Shown: positions 13,932-34,779 of the stretch, in pieces
How the letters are laid out: every line of letters starts with the position of its first letter
How positions within the stretch are numbered: the first letter of the stretch is position 1
From: a virus
Strand: one strand, 5' to 3'
DNA: 46,137 nt
Virus record (IMG/VR): IMGVR_UViG_3300026320_000012
Span: 1-46,137 of that record
Translations under genes and position numbers: made by a program
Notes under the pieces: generated by a model
What the model was told of the DNA's origin: nothing
The model's database searches: none
What the model saw: only the letters and a program-made list of their open reading frames with translations

Positions 13932-13950
13932 TACAGACGCAAAAAGAGGG

Positions 13951-14024
13951 CGGACCGGGGGAGACTCCAACTCCCGACTTCCCGCTTAGTAGGCGGGCAC
14001 TCTATGCGACTGAGTTACCGGCCC
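13951..14024 (-). tRNA. tRNA with ACU anticodon on an arginine-type body
   Basis: The 74-base cloverleaf is complete: acceptor GGGCCGG/CCGGTCC (one G-U pair), D stem ACTC/GAGT, anticodon stem CCCGC/GCGGG, T stem GGGAG/CTCCC, variable region of five bases, discriminator G73, no encoded CCA. The anticodon loop CTACTAA gives ACU, formally serine (AGU), but there is no long variable arm; the D loop AGTCGCATA with A20, C35, U36 and G73 are arginine-type identity features and differ from argU-type tRNA mainly by A34. C19 with G56 replaces the usual G19-C56 pair. Confidence 0.8.
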
Positions 14025-14510: not shown

Positions 14511-14543
14511 TAGCGCCCGAACAATTACCTTTGCGGAGGTTCT

Positions 14544-15185
14544 ACGAACTTCTATAAGCACTATCTTGGTGACTATGCCAGGGACACGGCGCATCTCTCA
14601 GTCACCGAACATGGCGTCTATCGCCTCCTGATGGACCATTACTACGCGCTCCTCAAGCCTCTACCTGACGATTTTGCCTATCTTTGCCGCGTTGCAAAAT
14701 GTCACTCAAGGCATGAAAAGGCCGCTTTGAGATCAATTCGAGATCAATTCTTCGACATCATCAACTGTCAACTTAGACACACACGCATAGACCAAGAAAT
14801 CCTTAAATATCAACAAAACTCCGATACGAACCGTAAAGCAATCGAATCGAGATGGAATACGAACCGTAATACCAAGCCAGAAGCCAGAAGCCAGATACCA
14901 GAAGAATCTAAGTCAACACCATTAGCTTCGAGCCCTAACGGGCTCTCGGCTGGTCTCAATGGCAAAAGCGTTGCTTACATTCCGCTAGTGGACGGAACTG
15001 AATTCGGGCTTTCAGAAGGTGAGTTGGACGAGCTAAAGAAGGCCTACCCGGCTCTTGACTGCAAGCAGACAATGCTTGAAATCAGGGCATGGTGCATAGC
15101 TAATCCAACAAGGAAAAAGACCAGGAGAGGCGCAATGCGGTTCATCAATTCATGGATGGCTAGGCTTCAGGATCGGGCGCGCTGA
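14544..15185 (+). CDS. DUF1376 (YdaU-like) replication-type protein with ACG start
   Basis: The N-terminal 80 residues are a DUF1376 domain: Asn-Phe-Tyr-Lys-His-Tyr-Leu-Gly-Asp-Tyr-Ala-Arg-Asp-Thr-Ala-His-Leu, then Glu-His-Gly-Val-Tyr-Arg-Leu-Leu and a Lys-Pro-Leu-Pro-Asp-Asp segment. Members normally begin with Met just before Asn-Phe/Tyr-Tyr; here that codon is ACG (14544-14546), four bases behind GGAGG, and there is no ATG, GTG or TTG between the in-frame TAG at 14511 and the ATG at 14631, which would cut 29 residues from the domain. The linker is low-complexity and a helical C-terminal domain (about 150-210) follows. The family is linked to phage replication initiation. Confidence 0.75.
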   Translation, partial: TNFYKHYLGDYARDTAHLSVTEHGVYRLLMDHYYALLKPLPDDFAYLCRVAKCHSRHEKAALRSIRDQFFDIINCQLRHTRIDQEILKYQQNSDTNRKAIESRWNTNRNTKPEARSQIPEESKSTPLASSPNGLSAGLNGKSVAYIPLVDGTEFGLSEGELDELKKAYPALDCKQTMLEIRAWCIANPTRKKTRRGAMRFINSWMARLQDRAR

Positions 15186-18468: not shown

Positions 18469-18631
18469 GTTGCTGATGCAGCATCTGGTGCCTGCTGGTC
18501 CTGCGCCAGCGCAGAGGGTGGCGGGGGTGCTGCCTGGGAGGAGTCCATCGCAGGAGGATTTCCTGCTGCAGCAGTTGCGTGCTCAGAGCGATGTGAAGAG
18601 TCTGGAAGCGCTGTTCCAGAAGTACAAATGA
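18455..18631 (+). CDS. Small leucine-rich protein before the sugar genes (58 aa)
   Basis: A GTG behind GAGGAAAC starts it, 14 bases inside the upstream gene, and its stop overlaps the epimerase ATG as ATGA. The product has a hydrophobic helix start, a Pro/Ala/Gly linker and a C-terminal helix rich in Gln and Leu. No family recognised. The overlap couples it to the sugar cluster. Confidence 0.5.
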   Translation: MSLLELLMQHLVPAGPAPAQRVAGVLPGRSPSQEDFLLQQLRAQSDVKSLEALFQKYK

Positions 18632-19497
18632 GGTACTTGGTTCTAGGCGCTTCGAGTTTCTACGGTTCGAATTTCTTGAAATTCCTGCAGGAAAAAGGTG
18701 AGGATGTCAAAGGACTCAGCCGCCCCGAGTTTGATCTGCGCAAGGATTTCATGGTCCCCAACGCAGATATCGTCGTCAACTTCATTGCCGAGAGTCTTGT
18801 TGCCGAATCTTGGGAAGACCCCGAGCGCTGGCTCGAAACGAACGTCGTATGCACCAACCGGCTATTTGAGGAAATACGCAAGAAGGAAATAGGCCTCTAC
18901 ATCCATATTTCCACGCCGGAAGTGTATGGGTCGAACACCCACTGGATGAAGGAGCGCCGCGACTACCTGCCGGCGACGCCGTATGCGGTCTCCAGAGCCG
19001 CAGCGGATATGATGCTGCAAGCCTACTGGAAGGCTTACCGTTTCCCCATGATTATCACCAGGACTGCGAATATCTATGGCAAAGGCCAACAAGATTTCAG
19101 GCTCATCCCGAAAGCGTTCTCCTTGCTGGCATCCGGAATGCCCTTTCCAGTCCGCGGGACTGGGCGTTCTCAGCGTAGCTTCATCCACGTTCGAGATGCA
19201 GCCCGAGCACTATATGTGCTTTCCAAAGACGGAAAAGCCGGAGAGCACTACCACATCTCGACCCGGAAGCAACACTCGATCCTAGAAGTCGTGAGGATGA
19301 TCTGCAAGATATTGGGTAAGGGCGAGGTTGAGTTTGAAAAAGACAGACTCGGGAAAGACCATGCCTACCTGCTGAACTCGGACAAGATGAGGGCGTTGGG
19401 CTGGTACGATCAGATCGAGCTTTATGAGGGGTTAAGAGATTATGCAGATCATGGCGGTTTCCTTGAAGACAGCAGAAGATTTCTTGTCGAAACATGA
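18628..19497 (+). CDS. NAD-dependent epimerase/dehydratase (extended SDR)
   Basis: The 289-residue protein has the Rossmann motif Gly-Ala-Ser-Ser-Phe-Tyr-Gly-Ser (residues 7-14), the SDR Ser-Thr-Pro-Glu-Val-Tyr-Gly strand near 95 and a Pro-Tyr-Ala-Val-Ser-Arg-Ala-Ala-Ala-Asp segment near 115 where the catalytic Tyr-x-x-x-Lys should be; the Lys is Arg here. The rest follows the nucleotide-sugar epimerase/dehydratase pattern (Thr-Arg-x-x-Asn-x-Tyr-Gly, Arg-Ser-Phe-Ile-His-Val-Arg-Asp). It should act on an NDP-sugar. It heads the sugar cluster by ATGA overlap. Confidence 0.85.
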   Translation: MRYLVLGASSFYGSNFLKFLQEKGEDVKGLSRPEFDLRKDFMVPNADIVVNFIAESLVAESWEDPERWLETNVVCTNRLFEEIRKKEIGLYIHISTPEVYGSNTHWMKERRDYLPATPYAVSRAAADMMLQAYWKAYRFPMIITRTANIYGKGQQDFRLIPKAFSLLASGMPFPVRGTGRSQRSFIHVRDAARALYVLSKDGKAGEHYHISTRKQHSILEVVRMICKILGKGEVEFEKDRLGKDHAYLLNSDKMRALGWYDQIELYEGLRDYADHGGFLEDSRRFLVET

Positions 19498-19708
19498 AAG
19501 ACACTATAAGGCTCCCGTTGAACCTGTCTGCGCCATAGGGGTTGGCGATGAAACCGGTCTCCATGGCGCAGCAGTCCTCGGAAGAAACGGCGAAGATGCA
19601 GAACTTGCCCATATCTATTGCGACGGAGCCTCCCAAGCCTATAGCCTCCTATACGGAGCTTGCTGGCGCACCCTCAAAGCCTTGGGGTACAAAAAGGCCG
19701 TTCTGTGA
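19442..19708 (+). CDS. Truncated XF1762-like (GNAT-type) protein
   Basis: The 88-residue product matches the front of a phage family I know as XF1762-like: His-Glu-Arg-His-Tyr-Lys-Ala-Pro-Val near residue 18, a Gly-x-Ala-Val-Leu-Gly-Arg strand, and Cys-Asp-Gly-Ala-x-x-Ala-Tyr-Ser-Leu-Leu-Tyr-Gly-Ala near 62. Relatives run on for some 60 residues after Leu-Gly-Tyr-Lys-Lys; here the frame stops three codons later, where the E1alpha gene begins. It overlaps the epimerase gene by 56 bases and is probably a remnant. Confidence 0.6.
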   Translation: MQIMAVSLKTAEDFLSKHERHYKAPVEPVCAIGVGDETGLHGAAVLGRNGEDAELAHIYCDGASQAYSLLYGACWRTLKALGYKKAVL

Positions 19709-20351
19709 GCGTCTGAGGGTTTTCGAGGAATATATCCTCGCGCATCTGGAAGAAATTCGCTGCCCAGTTCACCTTTCTCTAGGTCAGGAGCTTGTGTCAG
19801 AGGCTATCCATCGAAATATCCTTAAAGGCGATTGGCTATTCTCTACTCATAGAAACCATGGACATTATCTAGCGAAGGGCGGGAGCGAAGACAGGCTGTG
19901 GGATGAAATATGCGGTTTGGAGACTGGAATTAATCGCGGTATGGCAGGCAGTCAGTGTTTCTCCGATCCTGCGATAAACTTTCACGCGAGTTCAATTGTC
20001 GGCGGATCGATCGGTATTGCCGTGGGCGCGGCTTTTTCGTTGAAGGGAAGCGGAAATCTGGTCGTGTGCTGCCTGGGAGATGCCGCCACAGAGCAGGGGG
20101 TCTTCTGGGAAGCATTGAATTTTTCTGCATTGAAAAAACTCCCCATTTTTTTTATCTGCGAAAATAATCGATTGTCCATTGATGTCCCCATTGTGGAGCG
20201 TCAGACTGTCGGCATAACCCGGAGGGTCAAGACCTGGATCGAGATAGCGCCGACCATAAAACAAGGTTTCGAGATGGGCAGAATAGCCCCGATGTTTCAC
20301 GAAGCCTTTGTAACCAGAGAGGGGAAGCATTGCTATTTTCAGAAGAAATAA
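19596..20351 (+). CDS. E1alpha-like thiamine-diphosphate dehydrogenase subunit
   Basis: From about residue 40 it follows the E1 alpha fold of 2-oxoacid dehydrogenases: Arg-Cys-Pro-Val-His-Leu-Ser-Leu-Gly-Gln-Glu, Ser-Thr-His-Arg-Asn-His-Gly-His-Tyr-Leu-Ala-Lys-Gly-Gly, Ile-Val-Gly-Gly-Ser-Ile-x-Ile-Ala-Val-Gly-Ala-Ala, and the cofactor site Gly-Asp-Ala-Ala ... Glu-Asn-Asn, with Ala for the third Gly of Gly-Asp-Gly. It is about 80 residues shorter at the C-terminus than normal. The start is unclear: ATGs at 19548, 19563 and 19596 all lie inside the truncated GNAT gene. Confidence 0.75.
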   Translation: MQNLPISIATEPPKPIASYTELAGAPSKPWGTKRPFCERLRVFEEYILAHLEEIRCPVHLSLGQELVSEAIHRNILKGDWLFSTHRNHGHYLAKGGSEDRLWDEICGLETGINRGMAGSQCFSDPAINFHASSIVGGSIGIAVGAAFSLKGSGNLVVCCLGDAATEQGVFWEALNFSALKKLPIFFICENNRLSIDVPIVERQTVGITRRVKTWIEIAPTIKQGFEMGRIAPMFHEAFVTREGKHCYFQKK

Positions 20352-20836
20352 ATAAGGCTCTGGACGAAGCCCTGAAGGATGAGAGGACACTGCTATGCGG
20401 ACAACTCGTGAACTACGGTCATTCAGCCCTAACCCGTGGGCTGGAGAAGAAATATCCGAATCAAGTGGTGACCTATCCGGTGGCGGAGAATTTGATGAAT
20501 GCGAGTGCGATGGGGATGAGCTTGGCGGGCAAGAGACCGATTGTATTGCATGAGCGCTTCGACTTCGCCTTAGTTGGAATGGACGCACTTATCAACCATA
20601 TTGCGATCTGGCCGAAGAAATGCGCAATGAAATTGCCTTTGGTGATGATGATAGTGGTGGGACACGGTAAAGGTCAGGGACCGCAGCAGAACAAGGATTT
20701 CACTGGATGGTTCAGGGAAATGGAGGGCTGGACTGTCCTTGAGCCGCGTCTTCCTGGATCGGCCTCCGTTGCTGTTCACGCTGCGACTCTTGCCGAGTCT
20801 CCGGTAATGCTCATTATCCATCGGGAGCTGTATTGA
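20330..20836 (+). CDS. E1beta-like thiamine-diphosphate dehydrogenase subunit, N-terminal domain only
   Basis: A TTG behind GAGGGGAAG starts the 168-residue product, 22 bases inside E1alpha. It matches the pyrimidine-binding half of E1 beta: Glu-Glu-Ile-Asn-Lys-Ala-Leu, Pro-Val-Ala-Glu-Asn-Leu-Met with the catalytic Glu, Met-Gly-Met-Ser-Leu-Ala-Gly-Lys-Arg-Pro, and Met-Asp-Ala-Leu-Ile-Asn-His. The usual C-terminal domain is missing. With E1alpha it could form a small ketol-transfer enzyme that builds a sugar; no E2 or E3 partner is encoded. Confidence 0.75.
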   Translation: MLFSEEINKALDEALKDERTLLCGQLVNYGHSALTRGLEKKYPNQVVTYPVAENLMNASAMGMSLAGKRPIVLHERFDFALVGMDALINHIAIWPKKCAMKLPLVMMIVVGHGKGQGPQQNKDFTGWFREMEGWTVLEPRLPGSASVAVHAATLAESPVMLIIHRELY

Positions 20837-21432
20837 TCTTTCCCGATGGTTCGATGGCCGGATATAGCTGGGAGAACGATCCGAAGCGCTTTGCCTTCAC
20901 CTGCGCCAGATACAAATTCATTGCGAAGATGGTAGAGGGCATGGACAAGGTGCTGGAGGTCGGCTGTAATGATGGGTTTTTCTCACGCATCGTCAGACAG
21001 CATGTAAATCATCTGGTAGGAATGGACAATGACCCGAAGGCTGTTGAACTCGCCAAGGAGATGAACTCTGAGAAATGGAACATCTACTTTCAGCAGTGGA
21101 GCATACTGGATTCGACAGTGTTGTCTCAGCCAGGGTTCGATGCTGTGTATTGCCTGGATGTATTCGAGCACATAAAGGAGGAGGATGTTCTTCTACAAAA
21201 TCTCGTATTTTTTGCTCCTATGTGCATTATCGGCACTCCTAGCCTTGAGTCTCAAATATATGCTTCTCCGGTATCTAAAGCGGCGCATGTTAATACGGTT
21301 ACGAAATCACAACTCCGAACCAAGATGAAGAAATATTGGAAGCATGTTATTTGCTTCGGGATGCAGGACGAGGTTCTTCATACCGGCAAAGACGAAATGT
21401 GCAATTATATTTTCGGTCTTGGGTTCAAGTGA
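20833..21432 (+). CDS. Class I SAM-dependent methyltransferase
   Basis: A TTG in TTGA overlap with the E1beta stop starts the 199-residue product. Motif I is Val-Leu-Glu-Val-Gly-Cys-Asn-Asp-Gly-Phe-Phe (about 40-50), followed by Gly-Met-Asp-Asn-Asp at the acidic strand and Phe-Asp-Ala-Val-Tyr-Cys-Leu-Asp-Val-Phe-Glu-His as the Asp-x-x-Glu-His element common in methyltransferases of glycan and small-molecule pathways. In this cluster a sugar is the likely substrate. Confidence 0.8.
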   Translation: MIFPDGSMAGYSWENDPKRFAFTCARYKFIAKMVEGMDKVLEVGCNDGFFSRIVRQHVNHLVGMDNDPKAVELAKEMNSEKWNIYFQQWSILDSTVLSQPGFDAVYCLDVFEHIKEEDVLLQNLVFFAPMCIIGTPSLESQIYASPVSKAAHVNTVTKSQLRTKMKKYWKHVICFGMQDEVLHTGKDEMCNYIFGLGFK

Positions 21433-22490
21433 AACTCCCTCGTCCTGAGCCTGCCCTCGGCATCTTGGCCTACGCCCAAGAGCGCGATCTGTGCGTCAAC
21501 ATGGATCGCAGGAAGGCCGATAACTGGCGCTCCTATATCCAGACTAAGAATCTAGGCTGGCGCTCGACGATTGGCTATTTACCGATCAAGCTCGATATCG
21601 AAAACTGCTCACGCTGCAATTTCGCGTGCACTATGTGCGCGGTATCGAAGTGGGCGCACGGCAAGCGCGCAGACGACATGACGCTGGAGGAATTCAAGGC
21701 GCTCATCGATGAGCAATACGGTTTGGTCGAGATCAAACTGAACGGCCTGGGCGAGGCTTTGATGCAGGGGGATGATTATTTCGAGATGGTCAAGTATGCG
21801 AGGGCCAAGCATATCTGGGTGCGGATGACCACAAACGCCTCGCTCCTGCATCTACGGGACAACTACAAAAAACTCATCGACTCCGACGTGAACGAAATAG
21901 ATATCTCGATAGACGGCGCAGACCAAAAGACATTCGAGGGGATCAGGATACAGTCTGACTTCGATCAGGTCGTAAAGAACGCGAAGCAACTGAACGATTG
22001 CTGCGCTGGGACGAGGACGAAGATGTGGACGCTGGTGCAGAAGGCCAATTATACCAATTTGGCCGAACATCTTCATCTGGCTGACTATATGGGATTCAAG
22101 AATGTCGTGTTCTCCATGAATATGCACGGATGGGCCGACCCTGAATTGAAAAAGCGCAACGACGCCGAAATGGTCAATCTGAGCGAAGACTATATTTCGC
22201 ATCTTATGGAGACCGCCAAAAACAAGAGAATTAAACTCGCGTTCTGGGATGTAAATGATAAATTCGATACCGATATCATGCAGCACCGCTGCCCGTGGCC
22301 CTTCGAACGGGCCGTAGTGACCTCCGATCTGAGGACTGTTCCTTGCTGCATGATCGGCGATCCTGATAAATTCGAGATCGGGAAAGGCAAGACATTCCTG
22401 GTGAACTGGAAATCCGAGGAATATCGTGATTTCAGGCAGGCCCATATAGACGGAAATATTCCAGACGTCTGCAAAGCCTGCTACAAATGA
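21429..22490 (+). CDS. Radical SAM enzyme with SPASM domain
   Basis: The GTG in GTGA overlap gives 353 residues. Cys-Asn-Phe-Ala-Cys-Thr-Met-Cys (about 60-67) is the CxxxCxxC site that holds the 4Fe-4S cluster cleaving SAM, followed by the Gly-Leu-Gly-Glu-Ala element. The C-terminus has Cys-Cys-Met-Ile-Gly and Cys-Lys-Ala-Cys-Tyr, a SPASM-type auxiliary cluster site. Such enzymes in glycan clusters modify carbohydrate or peptide substrates by radical chemistry; the substrate here is unknown. Confidence 0.85.
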   Translation: MKLPRPEPALGILAYAQERDLCVNMDRRKADNWRSYIQTKNLGWRSTIGYLPIKLDIENCSRCNFACTMCAVSKWAHGKRADDMTLEEFKALIDEQYGLVEIKLNGLGEALMQGDDYFEMVKYARAKHIWVRMTTNASLLHLRDNYKKLIDSDVNEIDISIDGADQKTFEGIRIQSDFDQVVKNAKQLNDCCAGTRTKMWTLVQKANYTNLAEHLHLADYMGFKNVVFSMNMHGWADPELKKRNDAEMVNLSEDYISHLMETAKNKRIKLAFWDVNDKFDTDIMQHRCPWPFERAVVTSDLRTVPCCMIGDPDKFEIGKGKTFLVNWKSEEYRDFRQAHIDGNIPDVCKACYK

Positions 22491-23635
22491 AGGTGCTGAT
22501 TCTCGGCGGAGGATTCGCCGGAACGACGGCAGCTTATCTTCTCCAGAAAGAAGGCTATGAAGTTACCCTCATGGAGAAGGAGCCTCATCTGGGCGGCGGG
22601 TGCAGGACTTTCTTCTATGGCGGTCATCCTTTTCAATACGGCCCGAGGGTCTATTATGGATATAGCAAAAAAGTCTTTGACTGGGTTAATTCGTTCACGC
22701 CAATTCGCAGGTTTCCTTTTGAACTTAGAACCTTTGTTGAAAGCGATCAACGCTTCTACCACTACCCGATACATGAGGACGACTTGCCCTCAATGCGGGC
22801 ATACGCACAGATTAAATCTGAACTCGCAGCCAGAGACAACTCCAAGGAACCCAAGGATTTCGAGGAATACTGGATCAACCGAGTAGGGCGAACGCTCTAC
22901 GATATGTTCGTCAACAACTACTCTAAAAAGATGTGGATGATCGATGACAACCGCATCTTCGACATCTTCAAATGGAGCGCCAAGGACAAGCCGATAGAGT
23001 CAGGGCCGAAGGGGACTTATAAGGATTCGATCATCGGCTATCCGTATGCCCATGATGGATACAACGCCTATTTCGATGTGATGACGGAGAATGTCGAAGT
23101 TAGATTGAACGATTCATATTCTTGGTATGACAGGCACACTTTATCTTGCGAGGATTTCGATCTTTACATTAACACAATTCCTATTGATGAATTTTTGGGA
23201 TATGAATTTGGAGAGCTTCCATATGTTGGAAGAGATTTTCAAGTCATCATTCTGCCCTGCAAGCAAGTTTTTCCAGCGGATATCCGCTTCTGCCACTATG
23301 CGGGTTCAGAGCCGCACACCAGAATAACGGAGTTCAAAAAACTGACCTATCATGAGTCTGAAGATACCCTCTTGGTCATTGAGACCCCTTCGCATAAAAA
23401 CAAGCTATATCCCTATCTCACCAAAGCAAATATGGCTACCGTGGGGAAATACCTGGATTCCCTACCACAAAACGTTTATTCCATTGGAAGGCTTGGCACG
23501 TACAAATATTCGACGATTGAGCAAACTATCTGCCAAGCATTTGAAGTGGTATCGAAGATTACGGGCAAGTCCAATCCAATGGCAGATCAATTCTTTGGCA
23601 TCGGCGACACTGCATTGATGAAAGATAGAAAGTGA
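22487..23635 (+). CDS. glf: UDP-galactopyranose mutase-like flavoprotein
   Basis: ATGA overlap fixes the start of this 382-residue protein. It has the FAD Rossmann motif Gly-Gly-Gly-Phe-Ala-Gly (7-12), a Gly-Gly-Gly-Cys-Arg-Thr loop, Tyr-Gly-Pro-Arg-Val-Tyr-Tyr near 48, Asn-Asn-Tyr-Ser-Lys-Lys-Met-Trp near 144, Asp-Gly-Tyr-Asn-Ala-Tyr-Phe near 189, and Gly-Arg-Leu-Gly-Thr-Tyr-Lys-Tyr near 340, matching UDP-galactopyranose mutase, which makes the galactofuranose donor UDP-Galf. Length is normal for the family. Confidence 0.85.
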   Translation: MKVLILGGGFAGTTAAYLLQKEGYEVTLMEKEPHLGGGCRTFFYGGHPFQYGPRVYYGYSKKVFDWVNSFTPIRRFPFELRTFVESDQRFYHYPIHEDDLPSMRAYAQIKSELAARDNSKEPKDFEEYWINRVGRTLYDMFVNNYSKKMWMIDDNRIFDIFKWSAKDKPIESGPKGTYKDSIIGYPYAHDGYNAYFDVMTENVEVRLNDSYSWYDRHTLSCEDFDLYINTIPIDEFLGYEFGELPYVGRDFQVIILPCKQVFPADIRFCHYAGSEPHTRITEFKKLTYHESEDTLLVIETPSHKNKLYPYLTKANMATVGKYLDSLPQNVYSIGRLGTYKYSTIEQTICQAFEVVSKITGKSNPMADQFFGIGDTALMKDRK

Positions 23636-32265: not shown

Positions 32266-33090
32266 ATGCCGGAACAAATGACTTTGGACACCATACTAGA
32301 TGACAAGCCGCCTGTTGACACCCCGCCAGCAGAAGAAGTCAAGATCGAAAGCGACAATGCCAACATCAGGCATCAGGAGAAGGAAGAAGCCGCCCAGGGT
32401 CGCGTCAGGGACGGTACGGGTAAGTTCGTCAAGAAAGAGGAAGTCAAGGCCGAAGTAAAAACCGAGGTCAAGACTGAAGTAAAAGAGCCGGAAAAGAAAG
32501 AGGTTCCAAAGCAGGAGTTCTCCGAAAAGGAGCGGGCTCTACTTGCTGCCCTGCAAGACGAAAGGCGCAAGCGACAGGCTCTTGAACTCAAGTCCCAAGA
32601 GGTCAAAAAGCCTGAAAAGCCATTCTGGGAAGCTCCCGAGGACCATTTCAAGGCCGTAGAAGAGCAACACAAATCATGGGAGCAGAAGCAGAATGAGCGC
32701 GAGACCATATCCCTCTTGCGTGTAGCAGAATTGATGGCTCGTAAAGAGCATCCAGATTTCGACGAGAAGATTGAGCATTTCGGCAAGATGGTGCAGGAAA
32801 TACCTGGGCTTCACGCCCAATGGCTGCAAGCCCCTGATCCAGCCGAGTTCGCCTACAAAACAGCCAAACAACACAAGGATTTGCAAGAGGCTGGCAATAT
32901 AGATACACTGCGCGAGAATATTAGGAAGGAAGAAAGACTTAAGGTAGAAGCCGAGCTTAAGTCCAAGGAAGAGCAGTTAAAGAAGGAGCGCGACGCATTG
33001 CCGGGCACTTTATCGGATGCTCGCGGTACGAAGCAGCAAAAGACCGTCTGGGGCGGGCCACCGTCACTTGACGAGCTTTTGAAAGGGTGA
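32266..33090 (+). CDS. Scaffolding protein
   Basis: The 274-residue product is highly charged (Lys/Glu), with a disordered N-terminus, several Lys-Thr-Glu-Val repeats near residues 60-85 and long helices ending in a basic tail. No fold signature is needed: this composition and the position directly before the coat gene are typical of P22-like scaffolds, which shape the procapsid and then leave. TAGGAGA precedes the ATG. Confidence 0.75.
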   Translation: MPEQMTLDTILDDKPPVDTPPAEEVKIESDNANIRHQEKEEAAQGRVRDGTGKFVKKEEVKAEVKTEVKTEVKEPEKKEVPKQEFSEKERALLAALQDERRKRQALELKSQEVKKPEKPFWEAPEDHFKAVEEQHKSWEQKQNERETISLLRVAELMARKEHPDFDEKIEHFGKMVQEIPGLHAQWLQAPDPAEFAYKTAKQHKDLQEAGNIDTLRENIRKEERLKVEAELKSKEEQLKKERDALPGTLSDARGTKQQKTVWGGPPSLDELLKG

Positions 33091-33206
33091 CGCCGACCTA
33101 AAAGGGCGCATTTGTAGGGCCGCCTCCTTAAGGGCGATTGTAATTGTTATCCGCCGCCGGGTTTCCGGGCGAGAAACAATTTATCAATTGAATTAAGGAG
33201 AGTGTC

Positions 33207-34301
33207 ATAGCACAGACATATGCCCAGCCGGGTTTAACTCCGCAAATCTGGGATTCGGACTTCTTTCGCGACTATGTGCGTGCGAGTAGATTTCGCCGCT
33301 ATATGGGGACTTCGGAAGCTTCAATCATCCAGCTGAAAGAGGAGTTGACCAAAAAGCGGGGCGATTCAGTTACCTTCGCCCTCGTCAATGAATTAGTAGG
33401 AAGCGGTGTTACGGGTAACAACACCTTGAGGGGCAATGAGGAAAGACTCGGCTCCCGGTCGATGAAGCTGACGGTTGACGTTCTGCGTCACGCCGTAGCG
33501 GTTGATGACTGGGATGACCAAAAATCCGTAATTGACCTTCGCATGGCGGCTCAGACCCAACTTCGGGAATGGGCACAGAAGAAGCTTCGGGACGCGATCA
33601 TCACTAGTTTGGGTGAGATCGACGGTACGGCGTTTGAATCGGCAACCGGCGCTGCGCGTACCACCTGGAATACGAATAACGCTGATCGCGTATTGTTCGG
33701 GTCCAGCACAGCCAATTACACAGCCAATTTCGCCTCGGCGGCGGCTTCAATCGCAGCCAGCGAGCAGCTCGGGCCTCTTACCCTGAGCCTCATGAAACGG
33801 CTGGCACAAAAGGCTTCCCCGAAAATTAAGCCGATCTATGTCAAGGAAATGGATCAGGAGTGGTATGTGGCCTTCATTGGGTCTCGCAGTTGGAGAAACC
33901 TGACGGAGAACAGCCCGACTACCAACGTCCTCACCTTGGCGAACCGGGATGCCCGTATCAGGGGTGAAGACAATCCTCTGTTCACAGGCGACTCCCTGGT
34001 TTGGGACGGTATTATCCTGCGGGAAATTCCTGAAATTCAGCCTCTTCTGGCGGTTTCTGGGTCTGCAGGTACTGCGATCGAGCCCGTTTATCTGTGCGGG
34101 GCTCAGGCTATTGGTATCGGATGGGCTCAGAGAACCAAGAGCACGACCGACCTTACCGACTATGGTTTCTTGCATGGGGTAGGGGTCCAGGAAATTCGGG
34201 CTATCAAAAAGCTGCGGTTTGGGACTGATCCAACGGTGGATACGACTACGCCGAAGGATCATGGCATAGTGACGGCCTTCGTCGCAGCGGCTTCGGACTA
34301 A
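33207..34301 (+). CDS. Major capsid protein with ATA start
   Basis: The 364-residue protein has the coat signature of the DUF4043/N4 gp56-like group: Thr-Tyr-Ala-x-Pro-Gly-Leu-Thr-Pro-x-x-Trp-Asp ... Phe-Phe-Arg-Asp-Tyr-Val, Arg-Phe-Arg-Arg-Tyr-Met-Gly-Thr, Asp-Ser-Val-Thr-Phe-Ala-Leu-Val-Asn and Thr-Val-Asp-Val-Leu-Arg-His-Ala-Val-Ala-Val-Asp-Asp-Trp. Relatives begin with Met-Ala just before this; here the codon is ATA (33207-33209), six bases behind AAGGAG. The in-frame TGA at 33189 is followed by no ATG, GTG or TTG until GTG at 33276, which would lose 23 residues and has no ribosome site. Confidence 0.88.
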   Translation: MAQTYAQPGLTPQIWDSDFFRDYVRASRFRRYMGTSEASIIQLKEELTKKRGDSVTFALVNELVGSGVTGNNTLRGNEERLGSRSMKLTVDVLRHAVAVDDWDDQKSVIDLRMAAQTQLREWAQKKLRDAIITSLGEIDGTAFESATGAARTTWNTNNADRVLFGSSTANYTANFASAAASIAASEQLGPLTLSLMKRLAQKASPKIKPIYVKEMDQEWYVAFIGSRSWRNLTENSPTTNVLTLANRDARIRGEDNPLFTGDSLVWDGIILREIPEIQPLLAVSGSAGTAIEPVYLCGAQAIGIGWAQRTKSTTDLTDYGFLHGVGVQEIRAIKKLRFGTDPTVDTTTPKDHGIVTAFVAAASD

Positions 34302-34311
34302 GGAGAACACT

Positions 34312-34779
34312 ATGGCTGTCTTCACAGCAAATGCAGCGCAAACGACCGCGATGCCGAAAGGCAATCGGACAGGCCTGGTGGCGGTTACTTCGTTCTGGTC
34401 GTGGGATCGATCCGTTTCTGTCGGGACTACGATTCAGATGGTCAAAGTACCTGCCGGCGGGACTCCGTTATTTGTTCAGGTGGGCTCCAACAATGCGGGT
34501 CAGTCTTCCGTGTCCGTTGGTGATGGGATCAACAATTCCAGATATCTGAACAACATCACCCTTTCCTCAGCAATGGGGATGGTAATTGGTGGTGCCAGCG
34601 GAACGGTAATGGCGGTAGCGGCGCCTTATACCTATAGCACGGATGACACTATCGACATCTTCGTGTCTCTGGTATCCATCACAACTATCGGCGGGGCGTT
34701 CTATCTGACGACCATTATTTCCATGGACGTTCAGCCCACAGGTACAGTTGTCGGTCTTACTGGCGGTGTAGCAGGCTAA
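34312..34779 (+). CDS. Capsid-associated protein (155 aa)
   Basis: AAGGAGA stands before the ATG, ten bases after the coat stop. The product is Thr/Ser/Gly/Val-rich and beta-forming with almost no charged residues, as expected for a capsid decoration or head-fibre protein. It lies between the coat gene and the terminator, so it should be made in large amounts. Confidence 0.65.
   Translation: MAVFTANAAQTTAMPKGNRTGLVAVTSFWSWDRSVSVGTTIQMVKVPAGGTPLFVQVGSNNAGQSSVSVGDGINNSRYLNNITLSSAMGMVIGGASGTVMAVAAPYTYSTDDTIDIFVSLVSITTIGGAFYLTTIISMDVQPTGTVVGLTGGVAG

Follow-up and report, generated by a model that had tools for sequence, protein, structure and literature searches.

An apparent AUA start codon in a phage major capsid gene, with an extended Shine-Dalgarno sequence and a conserved leader hairpin

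Introduction

Where does translation of a major capsid gene begin when no canonical start codon fits its conserved N-terminus? AUA is among the weakest start signals known, and the main shell protein of a virion is normally required in hundreds of copies. The question is raised by a virus of bacteria represented by a 46,137-base record (here called the window, meaning the whole stretch of DNA that was analysed). The first-pass annotation of this sequence placed the capsid start at an ATA codon and pointed to a second gene starting with ACG.

The capsid gene and the position of its start

Is the gene in question a capsid gene? The plus-strand reading frame at 33207..34301 encodes 364 amino acids, which are a member of Phage_capsid_3 (PF13252, E 2.7e-52; 178.4 bits, curated cut-off 23) and match PHROG 334, major head protein (E 6.6e-76). 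The N4-gp56 equivalog family (TIGR04387) is related, with a score of 29.3 bits that falls below its cut-off of 60. The capsid proteins of the Pseudanabaena phages Pan3 and Pam5 and the solved capsid chains 9vye and 7eel are homologs with only about 38% protein identity, and the alignment with 9vye begins at residue 2. The AlphaFold model of the window protein is poor (pLDDT 54, and <40 at the N-terminus). At the DNA level, the window as a whole gave no match to sequenced phages.

The gene is flanked by a P22-like portal gene, a terminase gene and two genes whose roles are assigned by position. On its 5' side lies the putative scaffold gene (32266..33090, plus strand), which has no family match and is conserved in relatives; on its 3' side lies the putative cement or decoration protein gene (34312..34779, plus strand), with an ATG start and a TAAGGAG Shine-Dalgarno (SD) sequence. 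The order scaffold-capsid-cement is that of Pam5. Conserved neighbours and the surrounding head genes are intact: they are open, full length and free of frameshifts.

Direct reading of the sequence bears out the local description in the first-pass annotation. An in-frame TGA (33189-33191, plus strand) closes the capsid reading frame upstream, and after it the sequence reads ATT AAG GAG AGT GTC ATA GCA CAG ACA TAT GCC. The motif AAGGAG occupies 33195-33200 and is separated by a 6-base spacer (AGTGTC) from the ATA at 33207-33209. Downstream of the TGA, the first in-frame ATG, GTG or TTG is a GTG at 33276-33278 on the same strand, 23 codons past the ATA. A start at this GTG would remove 23 conserved residues, as the annotation had warned, and T4, L10, F19, F20 and Y23 are invariant there in the family.

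How well does comparison fix the start? Capsid relatives are encoded by 76 IMG/VR loci, 59 of which align from residue 1. At the codon aligned with the ATA, 57 of these 59 have ATG, one has GTG and one has ATA; because the ATG and GTG codons fall at exactly that position, the start of the window gene is placed at the ATA, and the claim that the conserved N-terminus begins there stands. The annotated capsid starts of the isolated phages Pan3 and Pam5 are the same aligned codon, although the window gene differs from both in starting with ATA. The nearest distinct relative, with a 96% identical protein, has ATG, as do all of the close relatives G002-G006, and relatives with 69-77% capsid identity have ATG except for a GTG in L070. 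The sole other ATA locus is contig 3300002907_000005, which is 100% identical to the window over its full 31,834 bp. The ATA is thus shared only with this 31.8-kb-identical contig and not between independent lineages, the others having ATG or GTG. By sequence comparison, then, the anomaly is real and the start position is well placed, and the ATA is likely to be used as the start codon of the capsid gene. The N-terminal peptide predicted for a capsid begun at the ATA is AQTYAQPGLTPQIWDSDFFR, with or without fMet.

Has the gene been under selection? With changes polarised by ten outgroups, the window branch has acquired 4 amino-acid and 48 synonymous changes since the split from its sister, the relative with the 96% identical protein; for the sister branch the figures are 5 and 50. 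Strong purifying selection on the capsid gene has been kept since that split. Taken over its full length, the window branch shows no relaxation of constraint, a result that says nothing about when the ATA arose.

An exceptionally strong Shine-Dalgarno sequence

The extended SD of the capsid gene, TTAAGGAG (33193..33200, plus strand), has a predicted pairing energy with the 16S tail of -12.2 kcal/mol, with seven contiguous pairs (TAAGGAG). No other SD among the 59 homologs, or among the 29 window starts that were examined, is predicted to pair as strongly as this element, which reads UUAAGGAG in the mRNA and has a 6-base spacing. The seven contiguous pairs of the window lineage compare with 4-5 in close relatives. 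For the GTG at 33276 the value is -3.2 kcal/mol, equivalent to having no SD. An SD as strong as that of the capsid gene lies upstream of 0.24% of window positions and of 3 of 602 ATA triplets, so the combination of ATA and SD is not attributable to chance. The locus thus has the two marks of a near-cognate AUA gene: no canonical start fits the conserved N-terminus, and an extended SD is suitably spaced.

Near-cognate starts elsewhere in the window and its relatives

The second gene singled out by the first-pass annotation encodes a DUF1376 (primosomal-like) protein and starts with ACG (14544..15185, plus strand). Its claimed start is upheld, since the homologous DUF1376 genes of relatives begin there and the Pfam DUF1376 match runs from residue 2. 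The position aligned with the ACG is GTG in one relative (L115) and is the CDS start in a Vibrio phage and an Acinetobacter phage. Its SD, GGAGG (14535..14539, plus strand; -10.7 kcal/mol), is the second strongest of the 29 window starts. Provided that the list of starts is correct, two near-cognate genes (ATA and ACG) would take ranks one and two by chance with a probability of 1 in 406; the list includes some uncertain starts, and the ACG may have been spotted partly through its SD.

Twelve related genomes, with 187 conserved ORFs among them, were screened for missing canonical starts, and 15 ORFs were flagged. Manual checking left as clear cases the window capsid gene and one ATT start in G010; most of the remaining flags, spread over several relatives, were artefacts of the algorithm caused by overlaps or internal Met columns. 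The G010 gene encodes a tetratricopeptide-repeat protein (L121, 18839-20335) two genes past the capsid; it lacks a canonical start and apparently begins at an ATT near 18920, behind AGGAG. Clear near-cognate cases are thus sporadic, one genome each.

A separate observation concerns a cluster of sugar and small-molecule genes at 18628-23635, conserved in G002, which encodes an epimerase, E1 dehydrogenase alpha and beta subunits, a methyltransferase, a radical SAM protein and UDP-galactopyranose mutase. The E1 dehydrogenase alpha gene (19539-20348) has ACA where G002 has ATG; an ATG upstream in frame (19596), which overlaps the previous gene, may be used instead.

A leader hairpin over the ribosome-binding site

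The leader of the capsid gene is predicted to fold into a hairpin (33121..33204, plus strand) in which CGCCUCCUUAA (33121-33131) pairs with UUAAGGAG (33193-33200) and with GUG (33202-33204). Within this arm, CUCCUUAA (33124-33131) pairs with the entire SD. The hairpin ends two bases before the ATA and shuts off the SD. For the 92 bases upstream of the ATA, the predicted fold has an energy of -34.0 kcal/mol (z -3.30; 0 of 200 shuffles).

Is the structure conserved? The predicted folds of 15 of 15 close relatives, including the window's twin, have the GG of the SD paired, with a mean z of -2.4. When hairpin arms were swapped between sequences, arms with their own partners averaged -14.4 kcal/mol against -10.4 kcal/mol with the partners of other sequences, a difference reached in 0 of 20,000 permutations; L048 is the single exception among the 15. 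The preference of arms for their own partners indicates that the structure is conserved by covariation. An alignment by MAFFT takes no account of structure, so that RNAalifold applied to it missed the long helix; the arm-swapping permutation was used for this reason. A search of Rfam with the leader found no known RNA family.

A short inverted repeat motif, CGCC...TTA/TAA...GGGCG, occurs at 33091-33108 and 33121-33136, upstream of the capsid gene. The DNA motif CGCC...TTA...GGGCG shows no enrichment within the window; in relatives it recurs before the capsid gene and before some other genes.

The members of the clade (G002-G006 and G009-G015, IMG/VR contigs with capsids 69-96% identical) resemble the window in having a leader hairpin that pairs the SD. 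They differ in the start region itself, with an ATG (one GTG) and an SD of 4-5 contiguous pairs where the window has ATA and seven. Maintenance of the stem may in part account for how strong the SD of the window is.

Precedents and the reading of ATA

Are AUA starts known elsewhere? In Staphylococcus aureus they are documented for infC, ccpN and citZ, with an extended SD stated for infC and ccpN (PMC13009471). In reporters, the AUA starts of citZ and ccpN gave about 10% of the AUG level, and that of ccpN up to 30% in rich medium (PMC13009471). In vitro work on IF3 found that Watson-Crick pairs are required at codon bases 1 and 2 and that base 3 is more tolerant, although the weakest pairs among base-3 mismatches gave very low product (PMC10158994). 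A phrase search of the open-licence literature for AUA starts together with bacteriophage found no paper.

The window capsid gene shares its AUA start with all three S. aureus genes and its extended SD with infC and ccpN. The ccpN start is one that S. aureus and B. subtilis have in common. The window differs in that its AUA is confined to a single lineage and its SD lies in a hairpin. The S. aureus genes encode a translation factor, a repressor and a metabolic enzyme, for which attenuation is plausible; the window gene encodes the most abundant virion protein. An AUA start with an extended SD is therefore already known in kind, and is striking here for the gene concerned.

Could ATA have acquired a new meaning in this phage? 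Internal ATA codons align with Ile 189 times, Val 78, Leu 54 and Met 32, a pattern that resembles ATT and ATC and does not indicate reassignment to Met. Neither an initiator tRNA nor a tRNA with a UAU anticodon was found in the window. Its lone tRNA gene (13949-14024, minus strand) carries an ACU anticodon and lacks a long variable arm; ARAGORN calls it tRNA-Ser, which is odd. The lack of reassignment and of an encoded initiator tRNA suggests ordinary, inefficient near-cognate initiation offset by the SD.

Alternative explanations

Might the real phage have ATG, with the ATA arising from an error of assembly or consensus or from the assembler's choice of a minority allele? A single base decides the matter, and all relatives have ATG or GTG. 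The same base is present in the IMG/VR contig of dataset 3300002907, which argues against a one-off assembler slip, although this contig might derive from the population, or the reads, that gave the window and is not necessarily independent. Neighbouring conserved genes carry no frameshifts, and a random error would not predict an unusually strong SD; we regard an error or minority allele as quite unlikely. A related possibility, ranked after it and likewise improbable, is that the ATA is real but recent, a mutation that inactivated or strongly attenuated the gene in a (pro)phage copy that is defective or a dead end. The weakness of AUA as a start and its presence in one lineage only are what such a mutation would predict, and codon selection reflects the past, not the time since the mutation. 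Against this, none of the other conserved head genes checked is broken, amino-acid change is not in excess on the window branch, and the SD is at maximum strength.

The remaining alternatives place the start elsewhere. The GTG at 33276 has in its favour that it is the first canonical in-frame start, and it would yield a mature coat that lacks the first 23 residues. Such a coat is very improbable: the GTG has no SD, the invariant residues lie upstream of it, compared with the nearest relative, codons 2-23 show eight synonymous changes and one amino-acid change, and 9vye aligns across the disputed segment. Scarcely credible is an upstream start reached by frameshifting or reinitiation, for example through the mini-frame GTG-TCA-TAG (33202-33210) that overlaps the ATA. 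Only one base separates GTG 33202 from the SD, which is too near for normal initiation, and no slippery site was seen. Re-initiation at the ATA would need recognition of the ATA all the same, and relatives have a plain ATG.

A model for initiation at the capsid ATA

Taken with this evidence, the ATA is probably a derived near-cognate start of a working capsid gene, with the weak codon offset by a strong SD. The ancestral ATG would have become ATA by one G-to-A transition, and the initiator tRNA (CAU) would read AUA with a mismatch at the third base only. The much strengthened SD would hold the 30S subunit in place for long enough that initiation could occur, and fMet would be added as usual. 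The location of the SD inside the conserved leader hairpin implies that the hairpin must open or be processed before initiation, which might occur by transcription-coupled ribosome loading or by RNase cleavage. Ribosomes would presumably initiate efficiently at the ATA, and the amounts of capsid would most simply be reached through transcript abundance.

Several points weigh against this model. By analogy with known cases, AUA would cost 70-90% of initiation, which is hard to reconcile with the most abundant virion protein, and in the predicted fold the SD is occluded. The very low product of the weakest base-3 pairs in vitro also counts against it, and since the sole other ATA contig may share reads with the window, the ATA might be a polymorphism or a recent null mutation. 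An unlikely variant is that start-codon selection is relaxed during infection, as a property of the phage lineage or of the host, so that AUA and ACG work well behind strong SDs; the hairpin, by hiding the SD, and the weak codon would then form a two-lock translational control that sets capsid output.

Implications

Gene finders limited to ATG, GTG and TTG would trim or miss a capsid start of this kind. What is new here is the capsid leader hairpin, which by prediction pairs the SD in 15/15 close relatives with covarying arms, and which points to a translational control, apparently undescribed, in this phage group. Returning to the compensated AUA start, if protein at capsid level is made from AUA, this would be a natural case of strong SD pairing offsetting a very weak start codon; output on that scale, if true, would offer a direct test of the limits of SD compensation.
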